A stretch of 64,000 nucleotides of DNA from a virus: positions 1 to 64,000 of the IMG/VR virus record IMGVR_UViG_3300027741_000024. One strand, 5' to 3'. Within the stretch, counting starts at the first letter, position 1; each line of letters begins with the position of its first letter. Below are positions 19,574 to 33,241 of this stretch, piece by piece. The notes below the pieces were generated by a model that saw nothing but the letters and a program-made list of their open reading frames with translations, made no database searches and had not been told where the DNA came from. A program made the position numbers and the translations under genes.

Positions 19574-19906
19574 ATGGCTAATAATTTTAAGAATTACACT
19601 TTAAAGTCTGTAGGAACTTCATCAACAAATGTATATGCTGCTGGTACGGGTGTTCAAGCCACTGTAATTGGTATGTCAATAGCAAACATGATTACTACTC
19701 CTATTTCCGCTAGTATTATTATAAACGGTGGAGGAATTACCGGTAACGTATTTCTTATTAAAGATGCGACAATTGCTCCCGGTGGTGCATTAATACCTAT
19801 TGGTGGTGATCAAAAATTTGTTTTGGAAGCAGGAGACTACTTGCAAGTAAACACTTCAATTGCGTCATCGGCTGACGTTATTTTATCGGTTTTGGAGATT
19901 AGTTAA
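19574..19906 (+). CDS. Small beta-sandwich virion protein
   Basis: This 110-residue protein is almost wholly beta: YTLKSVGTSSTNVYAAG, VIGMSIANMITTPISASIII, NVFLIKDATIAPGGALIPIGG, KFVLEAGDYLQVNTS, DVILSVLEIS. The same strand pattern (NVY, VIGMSIAN, AGD, DVILSVLEIS) is common to small structural proteins near phage tail fibres. Its start is preceded by GAGGA, and it overlaps the next gene by 1 base (TAATGG). A small capsid- or fibre-decorating protein is the most likely role, by context. It may be distantly related to the gene at 20319. Confidence 0.65.
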   Translation: MANNFKNYTLKSVGTSSTNVYAAGTGVQATVIGMSIANMITTPISASIIINGGGITGNVFLIKDATIAPGGALIPIGGDQKFVLEAGDYLQVNTSIASSADVILSVLEIS

Positions 19907-20318: not shown

Positions 20319-20657
20319 ATGGCAAGAACATATAGAATTTTAGGACAAAAAAATCCAACAGGAAATACATTAACAACTTTATATACAGTTCCGACTAGTA
20401 ATTCTGCCATCATATCTTCATTAATAATTGCAAATCTTAACGAAACTGATGGTACCGGAAATTCATTTAGTATTGCAGTTAATATTGGTGGCGTTGCAGT
20501 ATCAAATTCAAATTATATTGCATATCGTGTTAATTGTCCAGTAAGAGATACTGTTACTATGACTCTTGGTATTACAATGAATGCAGGTACAACTATTTCT
20601 GTAAATGCTAATAATTCATTACTTACCTTCTCAGCATTTGGAACTGAAATTTATTAA
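20319..20657 (+). CDS. Small beta-rich virion protein
   Basis: This 112-residue protein has an AAAGGA ribosome site. The strand pattern TLTTLYTVPTSNSAIISSLIIAN, FSIAVNIGGVAVSNSNYIAYR, TVTMTLGITMNAGTTISVNANN, LLTFSAFGTEIY resembles small decoration or fibre-associated beta-sandwich proteins. It is similar in layout to the gene at 19574, and the two may be ancient paralogues. No enzymatic motif is seen. The placement amid fibre genes supports a structural role. Confidence 0.6.
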   Translation: MARTYRILGQKNPTGNTLTTLYTVPTSNSAIISSLIIANLNETDGTGNSFSIAVNIGGVAVSNSNYIAYRVNCPVRDTVTMTLGITMNAGTTISVNANNSLLTFSAFGTEIY

Positions 20658-22119: not shown

Positions 22120-22434
22120 ATGGCATATATTGGAAATCAAGTAACATCAGTACCATTTACTATAGATGTGTTCAGTGGAGATGGATCAGCAACTTCGTTT
22201 GGACCACTTGTTCGTGCTCCAGCCACTGCTGCATCTGTTATGATATTTGTTGCTGGTGTCTATCAACGTCCAAATATTGATTATACGTTGAATGCTGATT
22301 ATGTCGATTTTACTTTTATACCTAATTCTGGTACAAATAATATTGTTATTCATCATATAGGTAATGGTGTAATTGCAACACAAGTATCACCAGATTATTC
22401 AACAACAGCAAAGTTAGGATGGGGATGGTGGTAG
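22120..22434 (+). CDS. Short tail-fibre N-domain protein (paralogue of the gene at 19906)
   Basis: This 104-residue protein begins MAYIGNQVTSVPFTIDVFSG and has DGSATSFGPLVRAP, VMIFVAGVYQRPNIDYTL, DFTFIPNSGTNNIVIHHIG. It shares the start, the TxF...VxVxGVxQxP..xYxx core and the NIxV strand with the protein at 19906. It ends in an unusual LGWGWW. A CAAGGAAATA site precedes the ATG. Both look like single fibre attachment domains. The aromatic end might pack against a partner. Confidence 0.62.
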   Translation: MAYIGNQVTSVPFTIDVFSGDGSATSFGPLVRAPATAASVMIFVAGVYQRPNIDYTLNADYVDFTFIPNSGTNNIVIHHIGNGVIATQVSPDYSTTAKLGWGWW

Positions 22435-23003: not shown

Positions 23004-23408
23004 TTGGCGGCATTTTCAGAATTAACAATTGAGCAGGGTGCAAATCTAACATCATATGTTACAGTATCCGATAGTAGTGGTTACCCAATAAATTTACAAT
23101 TTTATTCTGCCGTTTCTCAACTTCGCAAATCTTATTATTCTTCATCATATAAACCTTTAACTGCAACAGTTACGGGTATTGCAAATGGTCAAATTACATT
23201 GACGATGACCGCAGCAAATACTGCTAATCTTAATCCTGGTCGATATGTATATGATTTAAACATAATTAATTCTGTAGATAATTCAGTGATACGAGTAGTG
23301 GAAGGAACGGCAGTAATTCTTCCAGCAGTTACAAATAGTTATAACTCATATTCACCACCTCCAGAACCACCATCAGGAGATTTAGAAATTGATGGTGGAA
23401 CTTTCTAA
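23004..23408 (+). CDS. Ig-like/BppU-N-like structural protein with GG-x-F tail
   Basis: This 134-residue protein starts with TTG, placed by an AAAGGAGAA ribosome site 7 bases upstream. The pattern is ELTIEQGANLTSYVTVSDSS, QFYSAVSQLRKSYYSSS, ITLTMTAANTANLNPGRYVY, RVVEGTAVILPAVT. This is a beta-sandwich common beside fibre genes of aquatic myoviruses, similar in style to the N-terminal domain of BppU-type baseplate upper proteins. The C-terminus after a Pro-rich linker is EIDGGTF, the first of six GG-x-F tails in this region. It is probably a fibre adaptor. Confidence 0.65.
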   Translation: MAAFSELTIEQGANLTSYVTVSDSSGYPINLQFYSAVSQLRKSYYSSSYKPLTATVTGIANGQITLTMTAANTANLNPGRYVYDLNIINSVDNSVIRVVEGTAVILPAVTNSYNSYSPPPEPPSGDLEIDGGTF

Positions 23409-23412
23409 AGAG

Positions 23413-23420
23413 GATAAATA
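23413..23420 (+). promoter_or_regulatory. Late promoter-like box GATAAATA overlapping a start codon
   Basis: GATAAATA whose last base is the A of the ATG at 23420. It is also preceded by AGAGGA, which may simply be the ribosome site, so promoter function is doubtful. Confidence 0.25.
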
Positions 23421-23650
23421 TGGATTCAGTTTCAGTTAAAGTTTTTCAACCAAATAGAACTACAATCGTATCTAATGATTTTCGTGCCAAACCTAATGTG
23501 TCAATGGCAGAAATAAATGATGTAAGTACGACAGGACTTCAAGATGGATATATACTTGTTTATAGTTCGGCAAATAACAAATATGAAACTAAAAGCAGTT
23601 CAAACATAACTCCTGCTACAGTGATTCAGGTTGATGGTGGTTATTTCTAA
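23420..23650 (+). CDS. Small fibre-region protein with GG-x-F tail
   Basis: This 76-residue protein contains SMAEINDVSTTGLQDGYILV followed by YSSANNKYETKSSS. This 'DVxxTGxxDGYxLVY' motif occurs as a connector domain in phage fibres. The end is VIQVDGGYF, one of six GG-x-F ends. Nothing enzymatic is seen. It starts 11 bases after the previous gene and ends 10 bases before the 899-residue fibre gene, suggesting a small accessory subunit for that fibre. Confidence 0.65.
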   Translation: MDSVSVKVFQPNRTTIVSNDFRAKPNVSMAEINDVSTTGLQDGYILVYSSANNKYETKSSSNITPATVIQVDGGYF

Positions 23651-23660
23651 AAAAATATAA

Positions 23661-26360
23661 ATGGCTAATCTATCAATACAAATTAAACGGTCATTAACGA
23701 CCAATACTCCAAATAGTTTAAACATTGGAGAACCAGCATATTCATATGCCAGTAATACATTCTTTATAGGTTCACCTGCAGGCACTGGTTCTATTGCGGT
23801 TGGTGGCAAGTTCTATCTAGACCAACAACAAACAATTTTTAATACAGTAAATGCTGCGTTTACTGCTGCTAATAATGCTGTTGCTGGAAATGTAGATCAG
23901 GCCGCTCGTAATCAATCAAACTCCGCATTTATTCAAGCAAATGCTGCTTTTGCTGCAGCAAATGCTGGTGGTACAGATCAATTTGCTCGTAATACTGCCA
24001 ATGCTGCATTCATACAAGCAAACACTCCAAGTTATGTTGCTAACTCTGCTGCATCATATGCAAATGCTGCTTTTGCTGCTGCAAATGCTTCTACTGCAAC
24101 CAATGTAACACAAAATAATTCTATTACTGCTGCATTTAATACTGCGAATGCTGCGTTTGCTGCTGCTAATGCTGGCAGTAGTGGTACTGATTCATATGCA
24201 CGTAACCAAGCAAATGCTGCGTTTGTTGCTGCAAATGCTTCTACTGCAACTGATACCACACAAAACAATTCTATTACCGTAGCACTGAATACCGCTAATG
24301 CTGCGTTTGCTTCAGCAAATAATATTGATGGTATCAATTCTACACAGAATAATTCTATTGCTGCTGCGTTTGCTGCTGCTAACGCTGCAAGTGCAACTGA
24401 TACAACACAAAACAATTCTATTACTGCGGCATTCAATACCGCTAATGCTGCATTTATACAAGCAAATACACCATCATATGTTTCTAACTCTGCGGCATCA
24501 TATGCGAATGCTGCTTTTGCGGCTGCTAATGCTGCATTCACACAAGCGAATGTTTCAGTCGGTGTTGATGCATCACAAAACAGTTCTATTACTGCTGCAT
24601 TCAATACTGCAAATGCTGCTTTTGCTGCTGCGAATGCTGGTGGTTCATCCACCGATTCGTGGGCACGTAACCAAGCCAATGCTGCATTCATACAAGCGAA
24701 TACAACTGGTACTCCTGTTGGCAATAATATTTCATTAGGAGCAAATGGTGTAGGTCAATTAGTAAGCAATGCAATAACTCTTACCACAACAACATCAGTG
24801 ACGAATAGTATAGCGCAATTAAATCAAGTGTTAGGTAAACTTGTACCTCCTGGACCACCAGCATTTCCATCTGGAAATACTCTTACAATTAGTAATGTCC
24901 AGACGTTTAGAATGACGAACTTTACTCAAACGGATCGTACATCATCATCAAGAAATGTTGCTGGTGGTACTACTGTTACAAACATTCGTCGTTCAAGTTC
25001 TTATAGCACATCAACGATTCAAGATCAAGGTCCAGGTGATAGTGGTACATTAACATTATTTAAAAACAGTGCTAATAATAGTGCATACACTTTTACAAAT
25101 GCTTCGGCAAATGGAACATATGGTGATATAGTTATTTCGGACAGTGTTGATTATGGTTCAAAAGTTACTGGAACAGCGCAAGGTTTTTGGAGAAGTTTTG
25201 ACTCTTCAGCAGCAGGTACAGTATCAAATGGTTGGAATGAAATCTATCTGACACATTCTGGAGCATCAACAACCAATACTCCTTTCTGGTACTATGACGA
25301 TAATGCACCAGGTGCACCAGTAATATCATCAACAAGTATCGTATCAAATACTGTTTCGTATGCTAACTCAAGCACCATACCACATTACAATTCATCTACT
25401 TTGTTTAATTTAGGATTCAATGTTGCAAAATTAAGTGGTGATACGTATCCAACAACTGATACATTTGTGTCAGCAGCAAGTGGTGGTGCTTTTCAATCAA
25501 ATGCAGGTGTCACATATACACAAGCAGGGATTACAACACCGCTTGCACGTAATCTTTATGTGACAAGTGGTTATGCAACGGTAAATTTAACATGTGCTGT
25601 TACTACAGGTTTTGGTAATAGTTCTTCTGGTCCTACAGTAACAACAAACAATAGTTATCTCTCTACAACATCAGCAGCAATTACTCCTGGCGCAATTGTT
25701 CAGTATAAAACTGGTACATCAAGTGCAATGGAAGAAACTACTTTAACATTTGGTTCGGCTATTGGAGTGGGTTCAGGATTGGCATTTAGAGTTGCAAATC
25801 CTGATTCAGGAACTGCTAATGATAATCCTTCATATGCTAATAATGCTTCAGCATTTGATAGCACAAATGGACCACTTCGTGTTACTGATGCTACTATTGT
25901 TGCTGGTGTATTAAAACATGATATAACAAATTACTCTACAGGTTATTTACCAGTAGGTCCGAATTTAAGCACAGGTCGTTCTGGTTCACAATACTTTACA
26001 TTTAAATTTATTCGTACATCGGTATCTAAATTTGATATTCAATTCTCTGGAACAATTGCTGGTCTATGGGTTGCACTTCCCGGTAGTATTATAGATTCAA
26101 AATCTACTATTGGTGGATGGTTAGACATGAGTGTGGCATACGCTGGTTCAGGTATACCAGGTGTGTTAGGAAATGGAAGTAATGGTTGTGCATTAGGTGG
26201 TATAGTCACACTAAATAGTTTAGTATCATCACATAGAAAAACTTGTACGTTTGGTACGGTGTCAAGTTCAGATACTACATTAAATGAAATTTACGTTAGG
26301 ATTAAACTTACAACCGGTCAAACTGTGACTGCGTTATCCCTACAAACCGCAAGTAACTAA
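23661..26360 (+). CDS. Large tail-fibre protein with Ala/Asn/Phe heptad repeats
   Basis: This 899-residue protein begins with a fibre attachment domain (LSIQIKRSLTTNTPNSLNIG, EPAYSYASNTFFIGSPAGTG, KFYLDQQQTIFNTVNAAF). Residues about 55-355 are low-complexity heptads such as ANAAFAA and TQNNSIT, predicted as an alpha-helical coiled-coil shaft. Residues about 380-899 form a beta-rich C-terminal region with Trp/Tyr motifs (GFWRSFDSSAAG, NEIYLTHSG, FWYYDDNAPGAP) that could hold the receptor-binding tip. It lacks the GG-x-F tail and ends SLQTASN. The N-domain is shared with genes at 27009, 27397 and, weakly, 29789. Confidence 0.8.
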   Translation: MANLSIQIKRSLTTNTPNSLNIGEPAYSYASNTFFIGSPAGTGSIAVGGKFYLDQQQTIFNTVNAAFTAANNAVAGNVDQAARNQSNSAFIQANAAFAAANAGGTDQFARNTANAAFIQANTPSYVANSAASYANAAFAAANASTATNVTQNNSITAAFNTANAAFAAANAGSSGTDSYARNQANAAFVAANASTATDTTQNNSITVALNTANAAFASANNIDGINSTQNNSIAAAFAAANAASATDTTQNNSITAAFNTANAAFIQANTPSYVSNSAASYANAAFAAANAAFTQANVSVGVDASQNSSITAAFNTANAAFAAANAGGSSTDSWARNQANAAFIQANTTGTPVGNNISLGANGVGQLVSNAITLTTTTSVTNSIAQLNQVLGKLVPPGPPAFPSGNTLTISNVQTFRMTNFTQTDRTSSSRNVAGGTTVTNIRRSSSYSTSTIQDQGPGDSGTLTLFKNSANNSAYTFTNASANGTYGDIVISDSVDYGSKVTGTAQGFWRSFDSSAAGTVSNGWNEIYLTHSGASTTNTPFWYYDDNAPGAPVISSTSIVSNTVSYANSSTIPHYNSSTLFNLGFNVAKLSGDTYPTTDTFVSAASGGAFQSNAGVTYTQAGITTPLARNLYVTSGYATVNLTCAVTTGFGNSSSGPTVTTNNSYLSTTSAAITPGAIVQYKTGTSSAMEETTLTFGSAIGVGSGLAFRVANPDSGTANDNPSYANNASAFDSTNGPLRVTDATIVAGVLKHDITNYSTGYLPVGPNLSTGRSGSQYFTFKFIRTSVSKFDIQFSGTIAGLWVALPGSIIDSKSTIGGWLDMSVAYAGSGIPGVLGNGSNGCALGGIVTLNSLVSSHRKTCTFGTVSSSDTTLNEIYVRIKLTTGQTVTALSLQTASN

Positions 26361-26362
26361 CT

Positions 26363-26998
26363 ATGTCAATATCAGATTCGTCAAAAGTAGACTTATTATA
26401 TAAAAAGCTTTTTGGTGTTGCCAAGACAGATACGGCAACAAATAAAAGTCCGAGCAATGAATCGATTGCCAGTCCAACCATCAATCGTGGTGATCGTGTT
26501 TGGACCCAAGCGGCAGACATTCCTGCAACAGCACCTGGATCAAATACTTCAGTAGTTCAACTTTATCAAACGACTGCTAGAGTTCAATGTACTGCTGATA
26601 CCACAACGACCCCAATAAGTTCTGTTTATCCATCATGGAAAACAAATCTAACTGATTGGATTACTCCGGAATTCGGTTCAACATATTTTATTAAAGTGTA
26701 TGCTGAAACTTCAGGTAATGCTAATCCAACTACAGGAACACCATTATCGGATTCTGGTATTGGTGGTGTAGGTGAATGGTTCTTTGATTATCAAGCAGGA
26801 GTGTTAAACTTTATTGGTGGTACAATACCAGCAACGCTAACATCATCAAAGGTAATTTATATTACTGGTTACAGATACGTTGGTGAGATTGGTGTTGCTG
26901 CTGCAAACAACAGACTTGTTGCTGCTTTTAATACCGCTAATGCTGCATTTCAACAAGCAAATACTGGTCCGCTATCAATTGTTGGTGGCAGTTTTTAG
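26363..26998 (+). CDS. Fibre-associated protein with a heptad stub and GG-x-F tail
   Basis: This 211-residue protein starts 2 bases after the large fibre gene. The N-terminus (VDLLYKKLFGVAKTDTATNK, then IASPTINRGDRVWTQAADIP) and the middle (FGSTYFIKVYAETSG, GEWFFDYQAGVLNFIGG, KVIYITGYRYVGEIG) form a conserved beta domain found with fibres of aquatic T4-like phages. A single heptad stub (AFNTANAAFQQANTG) then leads into PLSIVGGSF. The heptad stub suggests that it docks on, or was split from, the coiled-coil fibres around it. Confidence 0.68.
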   Translation: MSISDSSKVDLLYKKLFGVAKTDTATNKSPSNESIASPTINRGDRVWTQAADIPATAPGSNTSVVQLYQTTARVQCTADTTTTPISSVYPSWKTNLTDWITPEFGSTYFIKVYAETSGNANPTTGTPLSDSGIGGVGEWFFDYQAGVLNFIGGTIPATLTSSKVIYITGYRYVGEIGVAAANNRLVAAFNTANAAFQQANTGPLSIVGGSF

Positions 26999-27008
26999 AT
27001 AATCAAAA

Positions 27009-27341
27009 GTGTTAAATACATTAATACAATTTAAAAGATCATTAACAAATAATTCTCCAACTGCTTTAAACATTGGAGAACCTGGTTATTCGTATTCAAG
27101 TAATACATTATTCATTGGAACATCTGATAATAATGGTGTCATTGAAATTGGTGGCAGTAAGTATATTGTTCAATTAGGATATGCGTTTGACGCTGCTAAT
27201 TCTGCATTTATACAAGCCAATTCTGCTTATCGGTCACAAAATGCAACTGGAAATGTAGCAAACTCAGCATACACTCAAGCAAATGCGGCATTTATTGCTG
27301 CTAATGCAATCACAACATTGATTTTTGGTGGTAGTTTCTAA
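27009..27341 (+). CDS. Short fibre paralogue: attachment domain, heptads, GG-x-F tail
   Basis: This 110-residue protein starts with GTG. Residues 1-55 (LNTLIQFKRSLTNNSPTALN, IGEPGYSYSSNTLFIGTSDN) are the same attachment domain as in the 899- and 604-residue fibres. About 40 residues of heptad repeats follow (AFDAANSAFIQANSAYRSQN, ATGNVANSAYTQANAAFIAA). It ends TLIFGGSF. It is a complete miniature of the large fibres without the distal domain, so it may be a fibre remnant or a genuine short subunit. The intact frame and tail favour function. Confidence 0.68.
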   Translation: MLNTLIQFKRSLTNNSPTALNIGEPGYSYSSNTLFIGTSDNNGVIEIGGSKYIVQLGYAFDAANSAFIQANSAYRSQNATGNVANSAYTQANAAFIAANAITTLIFGGSF

Positions 27342-27352
27342 AAACGTAAAAA

Positions 27353-27360
27353 CATAAATA
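27353..27360 (+). promoter_or_regulatory. Late promoter box CATAAATA
   Basis: CATAAATA in the 55-base gap before the fibre gene at 27397, 36 bases upstream of its ATG, followed by a GAGAGGA ribosome site. Confidence 0.55.
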
Positions 27361-27396
27361 AAGAATAATTAAAAGCCTTAATCGAGAGGATAAAAA

Positions 27397-29211
27397 ATGG
27401 CCAATACAGTAATTCAACTAAAATACTCCCAGGTAAATGCTACTCCAACATCATTAAATGTTGCAGAACCAGCATATTCTTATGTCAGTAATACATTCTT
27501 TATTGGTTCTCCTTCTGGTACTGGAGTTATTCCAATCGGTGGTAAGTTCTATCTTGATCAACAACAATCAATTTATGATTCGGTAAATGCGGCGTTTCAA
27601 CAAGCAAATACTGGAGCGACCAGTACATATGCATTTAATCAGGCAAACTCTGCATTCTTCCATGCTAATGCCGCATTCAGCACAGCAAACGGTTCAGTAG
27701 CAGTAAATACAACACAAAATAATAGTATTGCTGCTGCTTTTTATCATGCAAACGCTGCATATGGTAAAGCAAACACTGCTGACACTAATGCTGGTAATGC
27801 TCAAACCACTGCCGATAATGCTGCTGCTGCTGCTTCTAATGCACAAAGCACTGCCGATGGTGCAGTAGCAGTAAACACAACACAAAATAATAGTATTGCT
27901 GCCGCTTTTGCTGCTGCTAATGCTGCAACGGCAACTAATACGACACAGAATAATAGCATCACTTTTGCTTCTGATACTGCTAATGCTGCTTTTGCCAATG
28001 CAAACAGTTACATCACACGTAACGAAGCAGTTAATGTAACACAAAATAATAGAACTGATGCTGCTTTTACACGTGCTAATAACTCGTTGTCTGCCAATAA
28101 CGGTGGTACAGTTACTGGTGACGTTTCTATTACTGGTAACTTGTATGTTACTGGTAATGTTGTCTCGATTAGCACCACAGAAATTGTTGCCAATGACTCG
28201 TTAATTGTTCTTGGCCTTGGAAATTACACATCCGATCTCGTAGATATCGGTTTTGCTGGTCATTACAACGATGGTACGAATGCTCACTCTGGTATTATTC
28301 GTGATTCATCCAATAAAGAATTCTATGTTTTTGATGGTTACACTCCAGAAATTGGAGCAAATAATAATATCAATCCAAATCATGCATCGTTCAATCTTTC
28401 AACACTGAATGCAAATCTAAAATCGCAGACTGTTCGTATCAAAAATATTGATATACTTCCATATGCAAATATAATATACGACACTGCAAATGCTGCGTTT
28501 GCAGCTGCTAATGCTGCAACTGCAACTGATACAACACAAAATAATTCCATTACTGCGGCATTTAATACTGCAAATGCTGCATTTACTGCTGCTAATGGTG
28601 CAGTTGCTGTTAATGCTACTCAAAATACCAATATTACTAACGCACAGAATTCTGCTGATGCCGCATTCAGTGCTGCTAATGGTTCAATAGCGGTTAATAA
28701 TACACAAAACAATTCTATTACGGTAGCATTGAACACATCAAATGCAGCATTTAATCATGCTAATGCTGCATTTGCTTCTGCTAATAATATTGATGGCATT
28801 AATGCTACTCAAAATACCAATATTACTAGTGTAACAAATACTGCTACATCAGCATTTAATCATGCTAATGCTGCATTTAATACAGCAAATACTGACGTTA
28901 CAAACGTTTCAATTACTGCTGCAAACTATGGTACTGCAAGTGCAGTTGCTTCGTTTAGAGTTGAAGCAAATGGTCGTATCACCTCTGCCAATAACACAGC
29001 GATTGCAATCTCTGCTGATGCAATTACTTCTGGTACATTACCTGTAGGAAGAGGCGGCACTGGTGCTACTACGTTTACAACTAATGGTGTTCTATTGGGT
29101 CAAGGAACAAGCGCATTCTCAACTGCATCATCGTCAACTGAAGGACACGTATTAACCATCAACGCTTCTGGTGTTCCAACATTTACATATCTACAAGGTG
29201 GAACATTCTAA
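27397..29211 (+). CDS. Tail-fibre protein with heptad repeats, beta domain and GG-x-F tail
   Basis: This 604-residue protein has the attachment domain (NTVIQLKYSQVNATPTSLNV, FFIGSPSGTGVIPIGGKFYL). Heptads run to about residue 225, then comes a beta domain (VTGDVSITGNLYVTGNVVSI, DLVDIGFAGHYNDGTNAHSG, IIRDSSNKEFYVFDGYTPEI). More heptads run to about 500, then a typical distal fibre segment (GTLPVGRGGTGATTFTTNGV, LLGQGTSAF) and the end TYLQGGTF. The beta domain is paralogous to one in the 1150-residue fibre at 29789. It is probably a trimeric shaft protein; the receptor is unknown. Confidence 0.78.
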   Translation: MANTVIQLKYSQVNATPTSLNVAEPAYSYVSNTFFIGSPSGTGVIPIGGKFYLDQQQSIYDSVNAAFQQANTGATSTYAFNQANSAFFHANAAFSTANGSVAVNTTQNNSIAAAFYHANAAYGKANTADTNAGNAQTTADNAAAAASNAQSTADGAVAVNTTQNNSIAAAFAAANAATATNTTQNNSITFASDTANAAFANANSYITRNEAVNVTQNNRTDAAFTRANNSLSANNGGTVTGDVSITGNLYVTGNVVSISTTEIVANDSLIVLGLGNYTSDLVDIGFAGHYNDGTNAHSGIIRDSSNKEFYVFDGYTPEIGANNNINPNHASFNLSTLNANLKSQTVRIKNIDILPYANIIYDTANAAFAAANAATATDTTQNNSITAAFNTANAAFTAANGAVAVNATQNTNITNAQNSADAAFSAANGSIAVNNTQNNSITVALNTSNAAFNHANAAFASANNIDGINATQNTNITSVTNTATSAFNHANAAFNTANTDVTNVSITAANYGTASAVASFRVEANGRITSANNTAIAISADAITSGTLPVGRGGTGATTFTTNGVLLGQGTSAFSTASSSTEGHVLTINASGVPTFTYLQGGTF

Positions 29212-29214
29212 ATA
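29208..29214 (+). promoter_or_regulatory. Late promoter-like box CTAAATA
   Basis: CTAAATA overlaps the stop codon of the 604-residue fibre gene and lies 23 bases before the ATG at 29238, which has its own AAAAGGAG ribosome site. Confidence 0.4.
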
Positions 29215-29237
29215 CTTTATCATGAAAAGGAGTTATT

Positions 29238-29789
29238 ATGAGTGTAGAATTTTCAAATGTATATCAAGAGGTTTTGCTTGAGAACTTAGATGTAATCATC
29301 AAGCAAAACTTCGTGATGCAAGCAAGATTAAAATTGCTTGAAAAAGAAACAGACGTTCGTGCAGAAATGCAGGCAAAAATTGATGAAATTACAGTAAAAC
29401 ACCAAGAAGCTTTACAACAAATTAGTCAGACTCAACATTATAAAGCACAAGCAGATAGTAATGATGCGATAGTTCAAGAAAAAACTAGAATTCAATCTGC
29501 TTTAAATGATACTATGCGGGATCTTGGTGTAACAAAAGATGCATTACAAGCAAAAGAAAATGCTTATAATGGCATTTTGCAAGAACTTAATACAACAAAG
29601 AGTGTGCTAGAGTTAAAAGAAAAGGAAATAGAAGAAATGAAATCTCGTATTTCTGAATTGGAAAAATTAGTTCCTTCTGCACCTAAAGTTGTTAAGAAAG
29701 TTGCTGTAAAGTCTATTGAAGAATTGCCTGTTGAAATTTCTGCTACTGAAACCAATAAACTAAAGGTTGAGGCTGGCGGGACATTTTAA
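29238..29789 (+). CDS. Long coiled-coil protein with GG-x-F tail
   Basis: This 183-residue protein is helical nearly throughout, with charged heptads from about residue 10 to 150 (NLDVIIKQNFVMQARLKLLE, KETDVRAEMQAKIDEITVKH, VLELKEKEIEEMKSRISELE). A Lys/Val-rich linker leads to KLKVEAGGTF. The composition (Glu/Lys heptads) differs from the Ala/Asn heptads of the neighbouring fibres, yet the tail is the same, which suggests the tail is a docking tag rather than part of a fold. It overlaps the 1150-residue fibre gene by 1 base, so the pair is coupled. It could be a fibre chaperone or a linker. Confidence 0.68.
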   Translation: MSVEFSNVYQEVLLENLDVIIKQNFVMQARLKLLEKETDVRAEMQAKIDEITVKHQEALQQISQTQHYKAQADSNDAIVQEKTRIQSALNDTMRDLGVTKDALQAKENAYNGILQELNTTKSVLELKEKEIEEMKSRISELEKLVPSAPKVVKKVAVKSIEELPVEISATETNKLKVEAGGTF

Positions 29790-32700
29790 TGGCAAACACA
29801 GTAATACAACTTAAACATTCCACCGTAACTGGCAACGTACCTACATCGTTAGCAAACGGTGAACTTTCTATCAACAATCGTGATGGAAAGTTTTTCTATG
29901 CAACGCCTATTGGTACAATCATAACGCATTATCCTTATTCGGGTCCAGCAGGTCTTAACCAAGAAATACAATTTAATGACTCAGGTTCACTGGGATCAAA
30001 CTCTGGATTAACTTTTAATAAATCTAGTGCTGTTCTTACGGTAAATGGTGCGTCAGTTGTTGCGGGTGTTAATGTTGTACCACAAATACAGTTCAGTTAC
30101 AATCAAGCAAACTCCGCATTCATTCAAGCAAATGCTGCATTTGCTGCTGTTAATACTGCCATCACTGGTTCAGCAGTTGATACGTATGCTCGTAACACTG
30201 GAAATTCAGCATTCATACAGGCGAACTCTGCTTATCAAAGTCAAAATGCCACAGGACAGTATGCTAACTCCGCTTTTGCACAAGCAAATGCTGCTTATCA
30301 AAGTCAGAATGCCACAGGACAATATGCTAACTCCGCTTTTGCACAAGCAAATGCCTCATACCAATCACAGAATGCCACTGGTCAATATGCCAACTCAGCA
30401 TTTATACAAGCGAACTCTTCTTATCAAAGTCAGAATGCCACAGGACAGTATGCCAACTCTGCTTTTGCACAAGCAAATGCCTCATACCAATCACAGAATG
30501 CAACTGGTCAATATGCCAACTCAGCATTCATACAAGCAAATGCCTCATATCAATCACAGAATGCAACTGCTAACTATGCAAACTCAGCATTAATACAAGC
30601 AAACTCTGCGTTCATTTATGGTAATGCAACTGCTAACTATGCGAATGCCGCATTCCTTCGTGCTAACAATTCACTGAATGCAAACGTTGGTGGTCAAGTT
30701 ACTGGCGATGTAACCTTTGTTGGTAATATAACATCAAACACAATAACAACAACAGGTTCAAATGGTAGCATCTCTGGTGCTAATGCCATTTTTACCAACT
30801 ATATTTTTGCAGCAAATGGTAATGTAGATTTATACATCTATAGTTCTAATGCCTACGCAAATGCTAATGCTGCTTTTGCCAAATCAAATGCTGCTTTTGC
30901 TAATGCGAATGGTGCATATACTGCTGCAAACTTGGCATTTAATCAAGCCAACTCTGCGTTTATACAATCAAATTCGGCATACGCACAAGCGAATGCTGCT
31001 TATACTTCACAGAATGCCACTGGTCAATATGCCAACTCAGCATTTATACAAGCGAACTCTGCTTATCAAAGTCAGAATGCCACAGGCCAATACGCTAACT
31101 CTGCATTCTTCCAAGCAAACTCTGCGTTCACTTATGGTAATGCTACCGCTACGTATGCAAACTCCGCTTTCTATCAAGCAAACTCGGCATATGCACAAGC
31201 AAATACTGCAACCAATATCGGTCAAGCAGCATACAATAATTCTAATACAAAGTTTAACTCATCTGGTGGTACAGTTTCGGGCAGTGTTAATGTTACTGGT
31301 AGTTTGGTTATTAGCGGCAACTTAACAGTTCTTGGTAACGGTACAAGTATTAATTCTAGTACCATTACTACCAACAGTAATATGATTTTGTTGTCCACTG
31401 GACAATATAGTTCTGATGTTTTAGACATTGGTATTGCAGGACATTATAATGATGGTGTAAATACTCATACTGGTATATTCCGTGATGCTGCTGTCAAAGA
31501 ATGGTTTTTGTTCAAGAGGTATGATCCTGAGATTGAAGCAAATACCAATATTGATGTTTCAAATAGTACATTCCAACTTGATACACTGAATGCAAATCTG
31601 CGTTCAAACAATATTATACTGAATGGTTTTGATTTAAATTCATACATCAATTCAGTATACTATCAGGCAAACTCCAGTTTTATTCAAGCAAATATTGCAT
31701 TCTTTACTGGCAACTCCGCATTCATTCAAGCAAATGCTGCTTTTGCTGCTGCAAATGCTGGCGGTAGTGGCACAGATCAAACTGCTCGTAATATTGCCAA
31801 TGCTGCATTCTCTGCTGCCAATTCTGCTGGTGCTTATGCAAATGCTGCTTTTGCTGCGGCTAACTCTGCTGGTTCATTAACATTTGTTCAGCAGGTTGCT
31901 AACACTGCTAATGCTGCATTCATTCAAGCCAATGCTTCATTCTCGTATGGTAATGCTACTGCTACGTATGCGAACTCAGCATTAATACAAGCAAACGCAG
32001 CATTTTTACAAGCAAACACGCCAAGTTATACTGCTAACTCTGCGGCATCATACGCAAACTCGGCATTTGCTTCCGCAAACTCGGCTTCAATTTATGCTAA
32101 CGGTGCTTTTACTACTGCTAACGTTGCAAACAGTAATGCTATATCAGCAGGTAACTATGCAAATACTGCTTTTGCTGCTGCTAACTCTGCTGCAATTTAT
32201 GCTAACGGTGCATTCTTACAAGCCAATGCAGCATTCTTACAAGCAAACACACCAAGTTATACTGCTAACTCCGCTGCAATTTATGCTAACGGCGCCTTTA
32301 CTACTGCTAACGTTGCAAATAATAATTCTATATCAGCAGGTAATTACGCAAATGCCGCATTCTTACAAGCAAATGTTTCTGTTGGTGTAGATTTAACACA
32401 GAATAATAGTATCATTGCTGCATTCTTACAAGCAAACACACCATCATATGTTGCTAACTCTGCTGCAATTTATGCCAATGGTGCATTCTCTGCCGCTAAC
32501 GTTGCGAACAGTAATTCTGTATCAGCAGGCAATTATGCTAACTCTGGTTTTGCAGTTGCTAACTCTGCTTCAATTTATGCAAACGGTGCATTCTTACAAG
32601 CAAATACTCCAGATTATGTTGCAAACTCTGCTGCGATATATGCTAACTTAGCATTTTCTGCTGCAAACGTTGCTGATAGTAAAGCAGTAGCGTCAGGCTC

Positions 32701-33241
32701 TTATGCTAACTCAGCATTTTCTGCTGCAAACGTTGCTGATAGTAAAGCAGTAGCGTCAGGCTCTTATGCTAACTCAGCATTTTCTGCTGCAAACTCTGGA
32801 TTTATTCGAGCAAATGCAACGAGTGATGTAGCAAACTCTGCAGCAATCTATGCCAATGGTGCTTTTGCTGCTGCTAATGATATAACAAATGTATTATACA
32901 CTTACGATTTAGATGATGTATCTTATTTGACTGATGGTTTTACGAATGTATTTCCTTTGACATACAATACGGCAAACATTTCTGTGCCAAGCCCGTGGAA
33001 TTTGATGGTAACAATTTATGGCATAACTCAAGCAGCATATGCTAATAATTATGATACCGTTTGGCTGAGTTTAGTTCCAACAGCATCTAAAGGATATACC
33101 TTAGATGATAGTGGAAATATTAAATTTGCTGATTCAGTTCCTGCTGGTGCTGACGTAATGATTCGTTTAGTTCCAGGTATACCTAACGCAAATACTAAGA
33201 TATATCCTTTTAAACCCACTGATATTTTCATGGGTTACTAA
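29789..33241 (+). CDS. Very long tail-fibre protein with 21-residue (three-heptad) tandem repeats
   Basis: This 1150-residue protein begins NTVIQLKHSTVTGNVPTSLA with a diverged attachment domain, followed by QEIQFNDSGSLGSNSGLTFN, a frequent fibre motif. Repeats of 21 residues (SAYQSQNATGQYANSAFAQA and variants) and other Ala/Asn/Phe heptads fill most of residues 100-1030. They are interrupted by a beta domain near 490-610 (GSVNVTGSLVISGNLTVLGN, VLDIGIAGHYNDGVNTHTGI). The C-terminal 115 residues (VLYTYDLDDVSYLTDGFTNV, FPLTYNTANISVP, PWNLMVTIYGITQAAYANNY) form a globular tip domain. The protein is probably a long alpha-helical fibre whose length can change by repeat recombination. Confidence 0.78.
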   Translation: MANTVIQLKHSTVTGNVPTSLANGELSINNRDGKFFYATPIGTIITHYPYSGPAGLNQEIQFNDSGSLGSNSGLTFNKSSAVLTVNGASVVAGVNVVPQIQFSYNQANSAFIQANAAFAAVNTAITGSAVDTYARNTGNSAFIQANSAYQSQNATGQYANSAFAQANAAYQSQNATGQYANSAFAQANASYQSQNATGQYANSAFIQANSSYQSQNATGQYANSAFAQANASYQSQNATGQYANSAFIQANASYQSQNATANYANSALIQANSAFIYGNATANYANAAFLRANNSLNANVGGQVTGDVTFVGNITSNTITTTGSNGSISGANAIFTNYIFAANGNVDLYIYSSNAYANANAAFAKSNAAFANANGAYTAANLAFNQANSAFIQSNSAYAQANAAYTSQNATGQYANSAFIQANSAYQSQNATGQYANSAFFQANSAFTYGNATATYANSAFYQANSAYAQANTATNIGQAAYNNSNTKFNSSGGTVSGSVNVTGSLVISGNLTVLGNGTSINSSTITTNSNMILLSTGQYSSDVLDIGIAGHYNDGVNTHTGIFRDAAVKEWFLFKRYDPEIEANTNIDVSNSTFQLDTLNANLRSNNIILNGFDLNSYINSVYYQANSSFIQANIAFFTGNSAFIQANAAFAAANAGGSGTDQTARNIANAAFSAANSAGAYANAAFAAANSAGSLTFVQQVANTANAAFIQANASFSYGNATATYANSALIQANAAFLQANTPSYTANSAASYANSAFASANSASIYANGAFTTANVANSNAISAGNYANTAFAAANSAAIYANGAFLQANAAFLQANTPSYTANSAAIYANGAFTTANVANNNSISAGNYANAAFLQANVSVGVDLTQNNSIIAAFLQANTPSYVANSAAIYANGAFSAANVANSNSVSAGNYANSGFAVANSASIYANGAFLQANTPDYVANSAAIYANLAFSAANVADSKAVASGSYANSAFSAANVADSKAVASGSYANSAFSAANSGFIRANATSDVANSAAIYANGAFAAANDITNVLYTYDLDDVSYLTDGFTNVFPLTYNTANISVPSPWNLMVTIYGITQAAYANNYDTVWLSLVPTASKGYTLDDSGNIKFADSVPAGADVMIRLVPGIPNANTKIYPFKPTDIFMGY
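30227..30604 (+). repeat. Six tandem 63-bp units encoding 21-residue coiled-coil repeats
   Basis: Six in-frame units of 63 bp begin at 30227, 30290, 30353, 30416, 30479 and 30542. Each encodes 21 residues on the plan S/A-[AS]-Y-Q-S-Q-N-A-T-G-Q-Y-A-N-S-A-F, or three heptads. Units alternate between two codon versions (TATCAAAGT and TACCAATCA), which suggests duplication of a 126-bp pair. Confidence 0.92.
32651..32776 (+). repeat. Exact 63-bp tandem duplication in the fibre gene
   Basis: Bases 32651-32713 and 32714-32776 are identical and in frame (21 residues, three heptads, containing AANVADSKAVASGSYANS). Perfect identity between adjacent units in otherwise diverged repeats points to a very recent duplication. 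Confidence 0.93.

Follow-up and report, generated by a model that had tools for sequence, protein, structure and literature searches.

The fibre cluster of the viral record IMGVR_UViG_3300027741_000024 raises the question why proteins of very different build should end in the same short peptide. In the window, the stretch of 64,000 nucleotides that was analysed (positions 1 to 64,000 of the record), six genes finish in Gly-Gly-x-Phe. Their ends are DGGTF (gene ending at 23408), DGGYF (23650), VGGSF (26998), FGGSF (27341), QGGTF (29211) and AGGTF (29789), just as the original prediction had listed them; all six lie in one cluster, and a six-frame scan found no other GGxF stop in the window. At the DNA level the whole record of 146,310 bases holds six forward and no reverse matches to a GGxF end, and all six are the cluster genes. 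Among 79 related metagenomic loci, found with the front of the fibre encoded at 27397, the tail closes 206 of 2114 forward ORFs versus a single one of 1863 reverse ORFs. A chance origin of the tail is rejected by the window scan, by the scan of the whole record and by these forward and reverse counts. A tail of the GGxF type was not found described in the literature searched, and neither the fibre region nor the long fibre nor the coiled-coil protein gave a match in DNA and protein searches of annotated phages.

All genes of the cluster are read from the strand shown. It opens with a collar or attachment protein of the LtfC type (23004-23408, 134 aa, TTG start), whose proline-rich C-terminal extension carries the tail at 23394-23405, followed by a connector of 76 aa (23420-23650, GGYF at 23636-23647) upstream of fibre A (23661-26360, 899 aa). 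A 211-aa segment protein of what we call the 186-aa family (26363-26998, GGSF at 26984-26995) lies upstream of an adaptor of 110 aa (27009-27341, GTG start, GGSF at 27327-27338), in which an N-terminal domain, a coiled-coil helix and the tail are combined. Fibre B (27397-29211, 604 aa, GGTF at 29197-29208) is separated from fibre C (29789-33241, 1150 aa) by a coiled-coil accessory protein (29238-29789, 183 aa, GGTF at 29775-29786). Fibres A and C lack the tail, as had been noted, the former ending in TALSLQTASN. As to homologues of the individual proteins, the segment protein is 76% identical over residues 1-179 to a 186-aa homologue in locus L041, relatives of the adaptor have shrunk to 78-83 aa, and relatives of the coiled-coil protein end in GGTF, GSSF, GSTF or GNTF. 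Relatives of the connector occur in the cultured cyanophages P-SSM2, S-CAM9, MED4-213 and Sf-CH8 and also in Melnitz-1, within the cluster that precedes gp13. Repeats of the NAAFxxAN type are arrayed in long runs in fibres A, B and C and probably form a trimeric coiled-coil shaft.

The bodies of the tailed proteins had been described as unrelated. This does not hold for all of them: the adaptor and fibre B, and with them the untailed fibres A and C, have one N-terminal domain of about 58 residues in common, located at 23661-23831 in fibre A (E 8.7e-27), 27012-27173 in the adaptor (E 4.2e-23), 27397-27567 in fibre B (E 1.4e-26) and 29789-29968 in fibre C (E 2.5e-21). In the following we refer to this domain as the socket and to the tail as the plug; the adaptors of 78-83 aa consist of socket and plug alone. 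An alignment of the socket (A4) matched the N-terminal domain of T4 gp37 with an hhalign probability of 97% and an E-value of 1e-10, and in many T4-like coliphages a cyanophage socket used as tblastn query retrieved gp37, annotated as 'long tail fiber protein distal subunit'. Socket and gp37 N-terminal domain are homologous by sequence. An AlphaFold model of the adaptor as a single chain predicts a small beta domain and a long helix with the tail free. The best Foldseek matches of its N-terminal domain, to streptococcal phage hyaluronidase, the major tropism determinant and CBA120 tailspikes, are weak with E-values that are not significant, and against Pfam Mtd_N (PF18454) the adaptor scores 13.3 bits, below the curated cut-off of 26.3. 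Note that two of the sockets in the window themselves end in GGKFY (IAVGGKFY and IPIGGKFY), and that a plug-like stretch of the form phi-x-phi-GG-x-[FYA] closes 66 of 132 distinct sockets.

According to reviews of T4, gp36 attaches by its C-terminus to the N-terminus of gp37, and it does so as a trimer that binds the gp37 N-terminal region (PMC9603124, PMC3004832). The cluster resembles this joint on both sides. Downstream segments start with a gp37-type N-terminal domain, four times in this genome, and the upstream partner ends in a short, aromatic-terminated peptide before the socket gene, as does gp36 with its D-x-G-x-aromatic end; in 24 loci T4-like gp36 terminates in DFGYY, DFGYYS, DFGEF or DFGTY directly before gp37. 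There are also differences: T4-like phages have a single gp36/gp37 pair, whereas up to four joints occur per cluster here, GGxF takes the place of DFGYY, and the plug-bearing proteins comprise connectors, adaptors, segments and fibres as well as coiled-coil and collar proteins. A homology of gp36 to the connectors, by profile, or to the 211-aa segment protein was rejected as no similarity was found, so that the likeness is confined to a short motif. The tail that they have in common may be a short inherited piece or may have been reinvented. For gp36 and for the N-terminus of gp37, a search of the PDB turned up no solved structure.

The relation of plug and socket was scored across the relatives by comparing the plug on a given gene with the socket on the next one, skipping the coiled-coil gene. 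A socket follows 124 of 134 plugs, versus 3 of 921 genes that have no plug. The resulting table (124 with both, 10 with plug only, 3 with socket only, 918 with neither) gives an uncorrected p of 4e-145, a value inflated by kinship among the loci, and the link persists when only distinct pairs of protein families are counted (12/7/2/399, p 8e-17). Two of the three socket-only and two of the ten plug-only cases are explained by GIY-YIG-like genes between the plug gene and the socket gene. Such ORFs (L020:4945-5559 and L063:9356-9991), which by eye look like GIY-YIG endonucleases, separate the connector gene and its plug from the socket fibre gene, and neither plug nor socket was lost. The third socket-only case has the near variant VGFF, and the other plug-only cases include fragmented genes, extra tails, and cyanophages whose socket is unlinked. 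When the tails of LtfC and coiled-coil proteins are left aside, all but one of the 26 distinct complete clusters have as many plugs as sockets (25 clusters, with ratios of 1:1, 2:2, 3:3 or 4:4), the sole exception (L013) having one extra connector. The window is a 4:4 case on this count; with all tails included it has six plugs for four sockets, the surplus residing in the LtfC-like protein and the coiled-coil protein, which stand outside this bookkeeping. In locus L033, the front of fibre A runs straight into the final 11 residues of a 186-aa family member; the greater part of both proteins is gone, while socket and plug are kept. A fusion of whole proteins was rejected for this case; as the match to the 186-aa family is restricted to these 11 residues, it represents a deletion that kept the plug.

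Cultured phages extend the relation to genes that are not neighbours. S-T4, Sf-CH8, S-SKS1 and S-SRM01 each encode one plug protein (ending in GGTY, GGVF, GGEY and GGTY, respectively) followed by gp13; an adjacent socket is absent, and the genome encodes exactly one socket fibre at another site. In P-SSM2 and S-CAM9, two plugs go with two sockets, one of them distant. In DSL-LC03, which also has one free plug and one free socket, a connector is fused to a socket precisely at the tail position ('...NEIDGQVNPTIKIKR...'), while S-PM2 and HTVC008M have neither plug nor socket. This first set is partly selected, since its members were found via the connector or picked by name. A second set of 12 further cyanophages was named before inspection. 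Among these, P-HM1 carries two plugs as well as two sockets, S-TIM5 encodes a connector-like protein that terminates in SGGEF and shows weak socket matches (E 1e-5), and the other ten show no socket at E 1e-4; the GGx[FY] hits inspected, those in P-SSM4, P-RSM4, S-SSM7 (one site) and Syn1, did not include a connector-like gene. A third set consists of three phages chosen for their socket: in ACG-2014f the LtfC gene is followed by a connector with the end DGGFF, the only candidate plug of S-SCSM1 is the variant end ...EIDAGFY, and in S-PRM1, whose record also lacks an LtfC match, a socket is present and a plug was not found. Fibre B retains its tail in cyanophages that have no adjacent socket gene. 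In P-SSM2 and DSL-LC03, the coiled-coil gene is not followed by a socket gene and its product lacks the tail, which suggests that the coiled-coil protein may act near fibre C.

Plug and socket are thus tied by neighbourhood, by number and across unlinked genes, and we consider it highly probable (about 0.85) that the GGxF tail is a portable docking plug that docks on the gp37-type socket of the next segment, in a generalised form of the gp36-gp37 joint. The original prediction had proposed a docking peptide for one common partner, with a fibre chaperone, the baseplate and the fibre subunit that follows as candidates. The last of these is the option we choose, because the tail goes with a gp37-type socket on the next or on one unlinked fibre gene; as the socket occurs on several fibres, the common partner would be a class of domains rather than one protein. 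Trimeric segments would accordingly join head to tail, with the C-terminal GGxF of one inserted into the N-terminal socket of the next. A first run would lead from the LtfC collar and then the connector to fibre A, and a second from the 211-aa segment through the adaptor and fibre B to fibre C, the likely distal or terminal segment; the type of joint would be that of T4, gp36 with its DFGYY end on the gp37 N-terminus, multiplied and made portable. What we infer here comprises the physical binding, the trimeric state, the order of segments in the virion and a joint of fibre A with the 211-aa segment. The absence of the tail from fibres A and C follows a rule, as no socket segment comes next in either case, and a tail on every protein of the fibre region was rejected. 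Both the minimal adaptors and the rearrangement in L033 agree with a plug.

Three other explanations have to be weighed against docking on the next segment. The three tail copies of a trimer might instead close and register the C-terminal end of inner segments, the end segment having a tip domain of its own, without any contact to the next socket. Linear chains would then give the same plug count, and the tail does often follow a coiled coil or a common fibre end domain, but this leaves unexplained why a flexible extension of the LtfC-type protein carries the tail, why it disappears exactly where connector and socket are fused, and why it is so closely tied to a socket, be that in the gene that follows or in an unlinked one; we regard such a closure as improbable. 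Less probable still is a tag recognised by a shared assembly chaperone, for which the coiled-coil protein 29238 would be a candidate. That different folds carry the tag and that most relatives have the coiled-coil gene in the cluster would suit a chaperone, which on the other hand need not match the number of sockets and would here be tagged itself; moreover, no coiled-coil gene was recognised in the slot in S-CAM9, S-T4, S-SKS1 and Melnitz-1, all of which have both plugs and sockets.

Finally, the conserved element might be the nucleic acid, serving translation coupling, the ribosome-binding site of the next gene or, as a short homology, the swapping of modules. The tail does sit at gene borders, often a few bases from the next start, and its glycine codon usage is unlike that of the gene bodies. 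However, all four glycine codons are used at both positions, in 15 of the 16 GGN-GGN combinations, the spacing to the next start ranges from overlap to more than 50 bases, and the partner gene is sometimes located in a remote part of the genome. The range of codons in use and the existence of unlinked partners reject a ribosome-binding or coupling signal, and we give nucleic-acid explanations as a whole almost no weight. Since the codons vary, the tail is under selection as a protein. Both glycines and the last residue were preset by the search pattern; at the positions left free, most tails have Ile, Leu or Val at -6 and mostly Thr or Ser at -2. In the connector family (alignment A1, 14 homologues, mean column identity 33%), only M1, G73, G74 and F76 are invariant.

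The first protein of the cluster, 23004, had been labelled Ig-like, and this label gives way to that of an LtfC-type collar protein. It matches phrog_3304 (E 4.6e-23) and by profile the DT57C LtfC structure 8hqz (E 1.9e-5), and the best Foldseek matches of its model are 8hqz (E 1.8e-8) and 7qg9. The model predicts a beta sandwich, with residues 111-134 at low confidence and without secondary structure, ending in the tail. In DT57C, LtfC forms a dodecameric collar that holds the fibre N-termini, and N-terminal strands of LtfA dock on it (PMC10713586). Sequence and fold thus make the present protein a homologue of LtfC, and its gene directly precedes fibre genes as ltfC precedes ltfA. Unlike here, DT57C LtfA and LtfB have no GGxF end and DT57C LtfC ends in ...DGVTQ. 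In relatives and in T5-type phages LtfC ends near the ...VT(R/Q) position, and the proline-rich extension with its plug is found in this lineage only (L007-L010). A homology of the connector to the DT57C LtfA N-terminus was rejected, as no similarity was detectable.

Beyond this cluster, the data lean towards a general plug-and-socket code in T4-like phages, in which a portable D/G-x-G-x-[FY] end and a gp37-type domain would be used one to four times per genome and the order of segments could be read from sequence, unlinked genes included; the plugs on collar and coiled-coil proteins would be extra docking points. If the tail is a plug, the fibre architecture of cyanophages and related aquatic T4-like phages and the likely distal tips, having a socket and no plug, become readable from the genome sequence, partners that are encoded far apart can be matched, and a short peptide can serve to test the T4 joint.

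A GGTF or GGSF end was also seen on a family with multiple membrane spans in three relatives (G002:80013-80942, G003:18548-19408 on the reverse strand, and G004:55399-56232). The homologue in the present genome (80637-81545, beyond the window) ends in ...MNGEMNERS and one in G005 in ...KIDGEIK; these tails could be due to chance or represent a membrane-tethered plug. Upstream of the fibre cluster, an ORF of 104 aa (22120-22434) matches with its start proteins of 229-340 aa in relatives (L030, L058) and may be truncated here. Two small proteins of about 110 aa are encoded at 19574-19906 and 20319-20657, and in relatives the stretch from the VrlC-like gene to the fibre cluster encodes similar proteins several times over.
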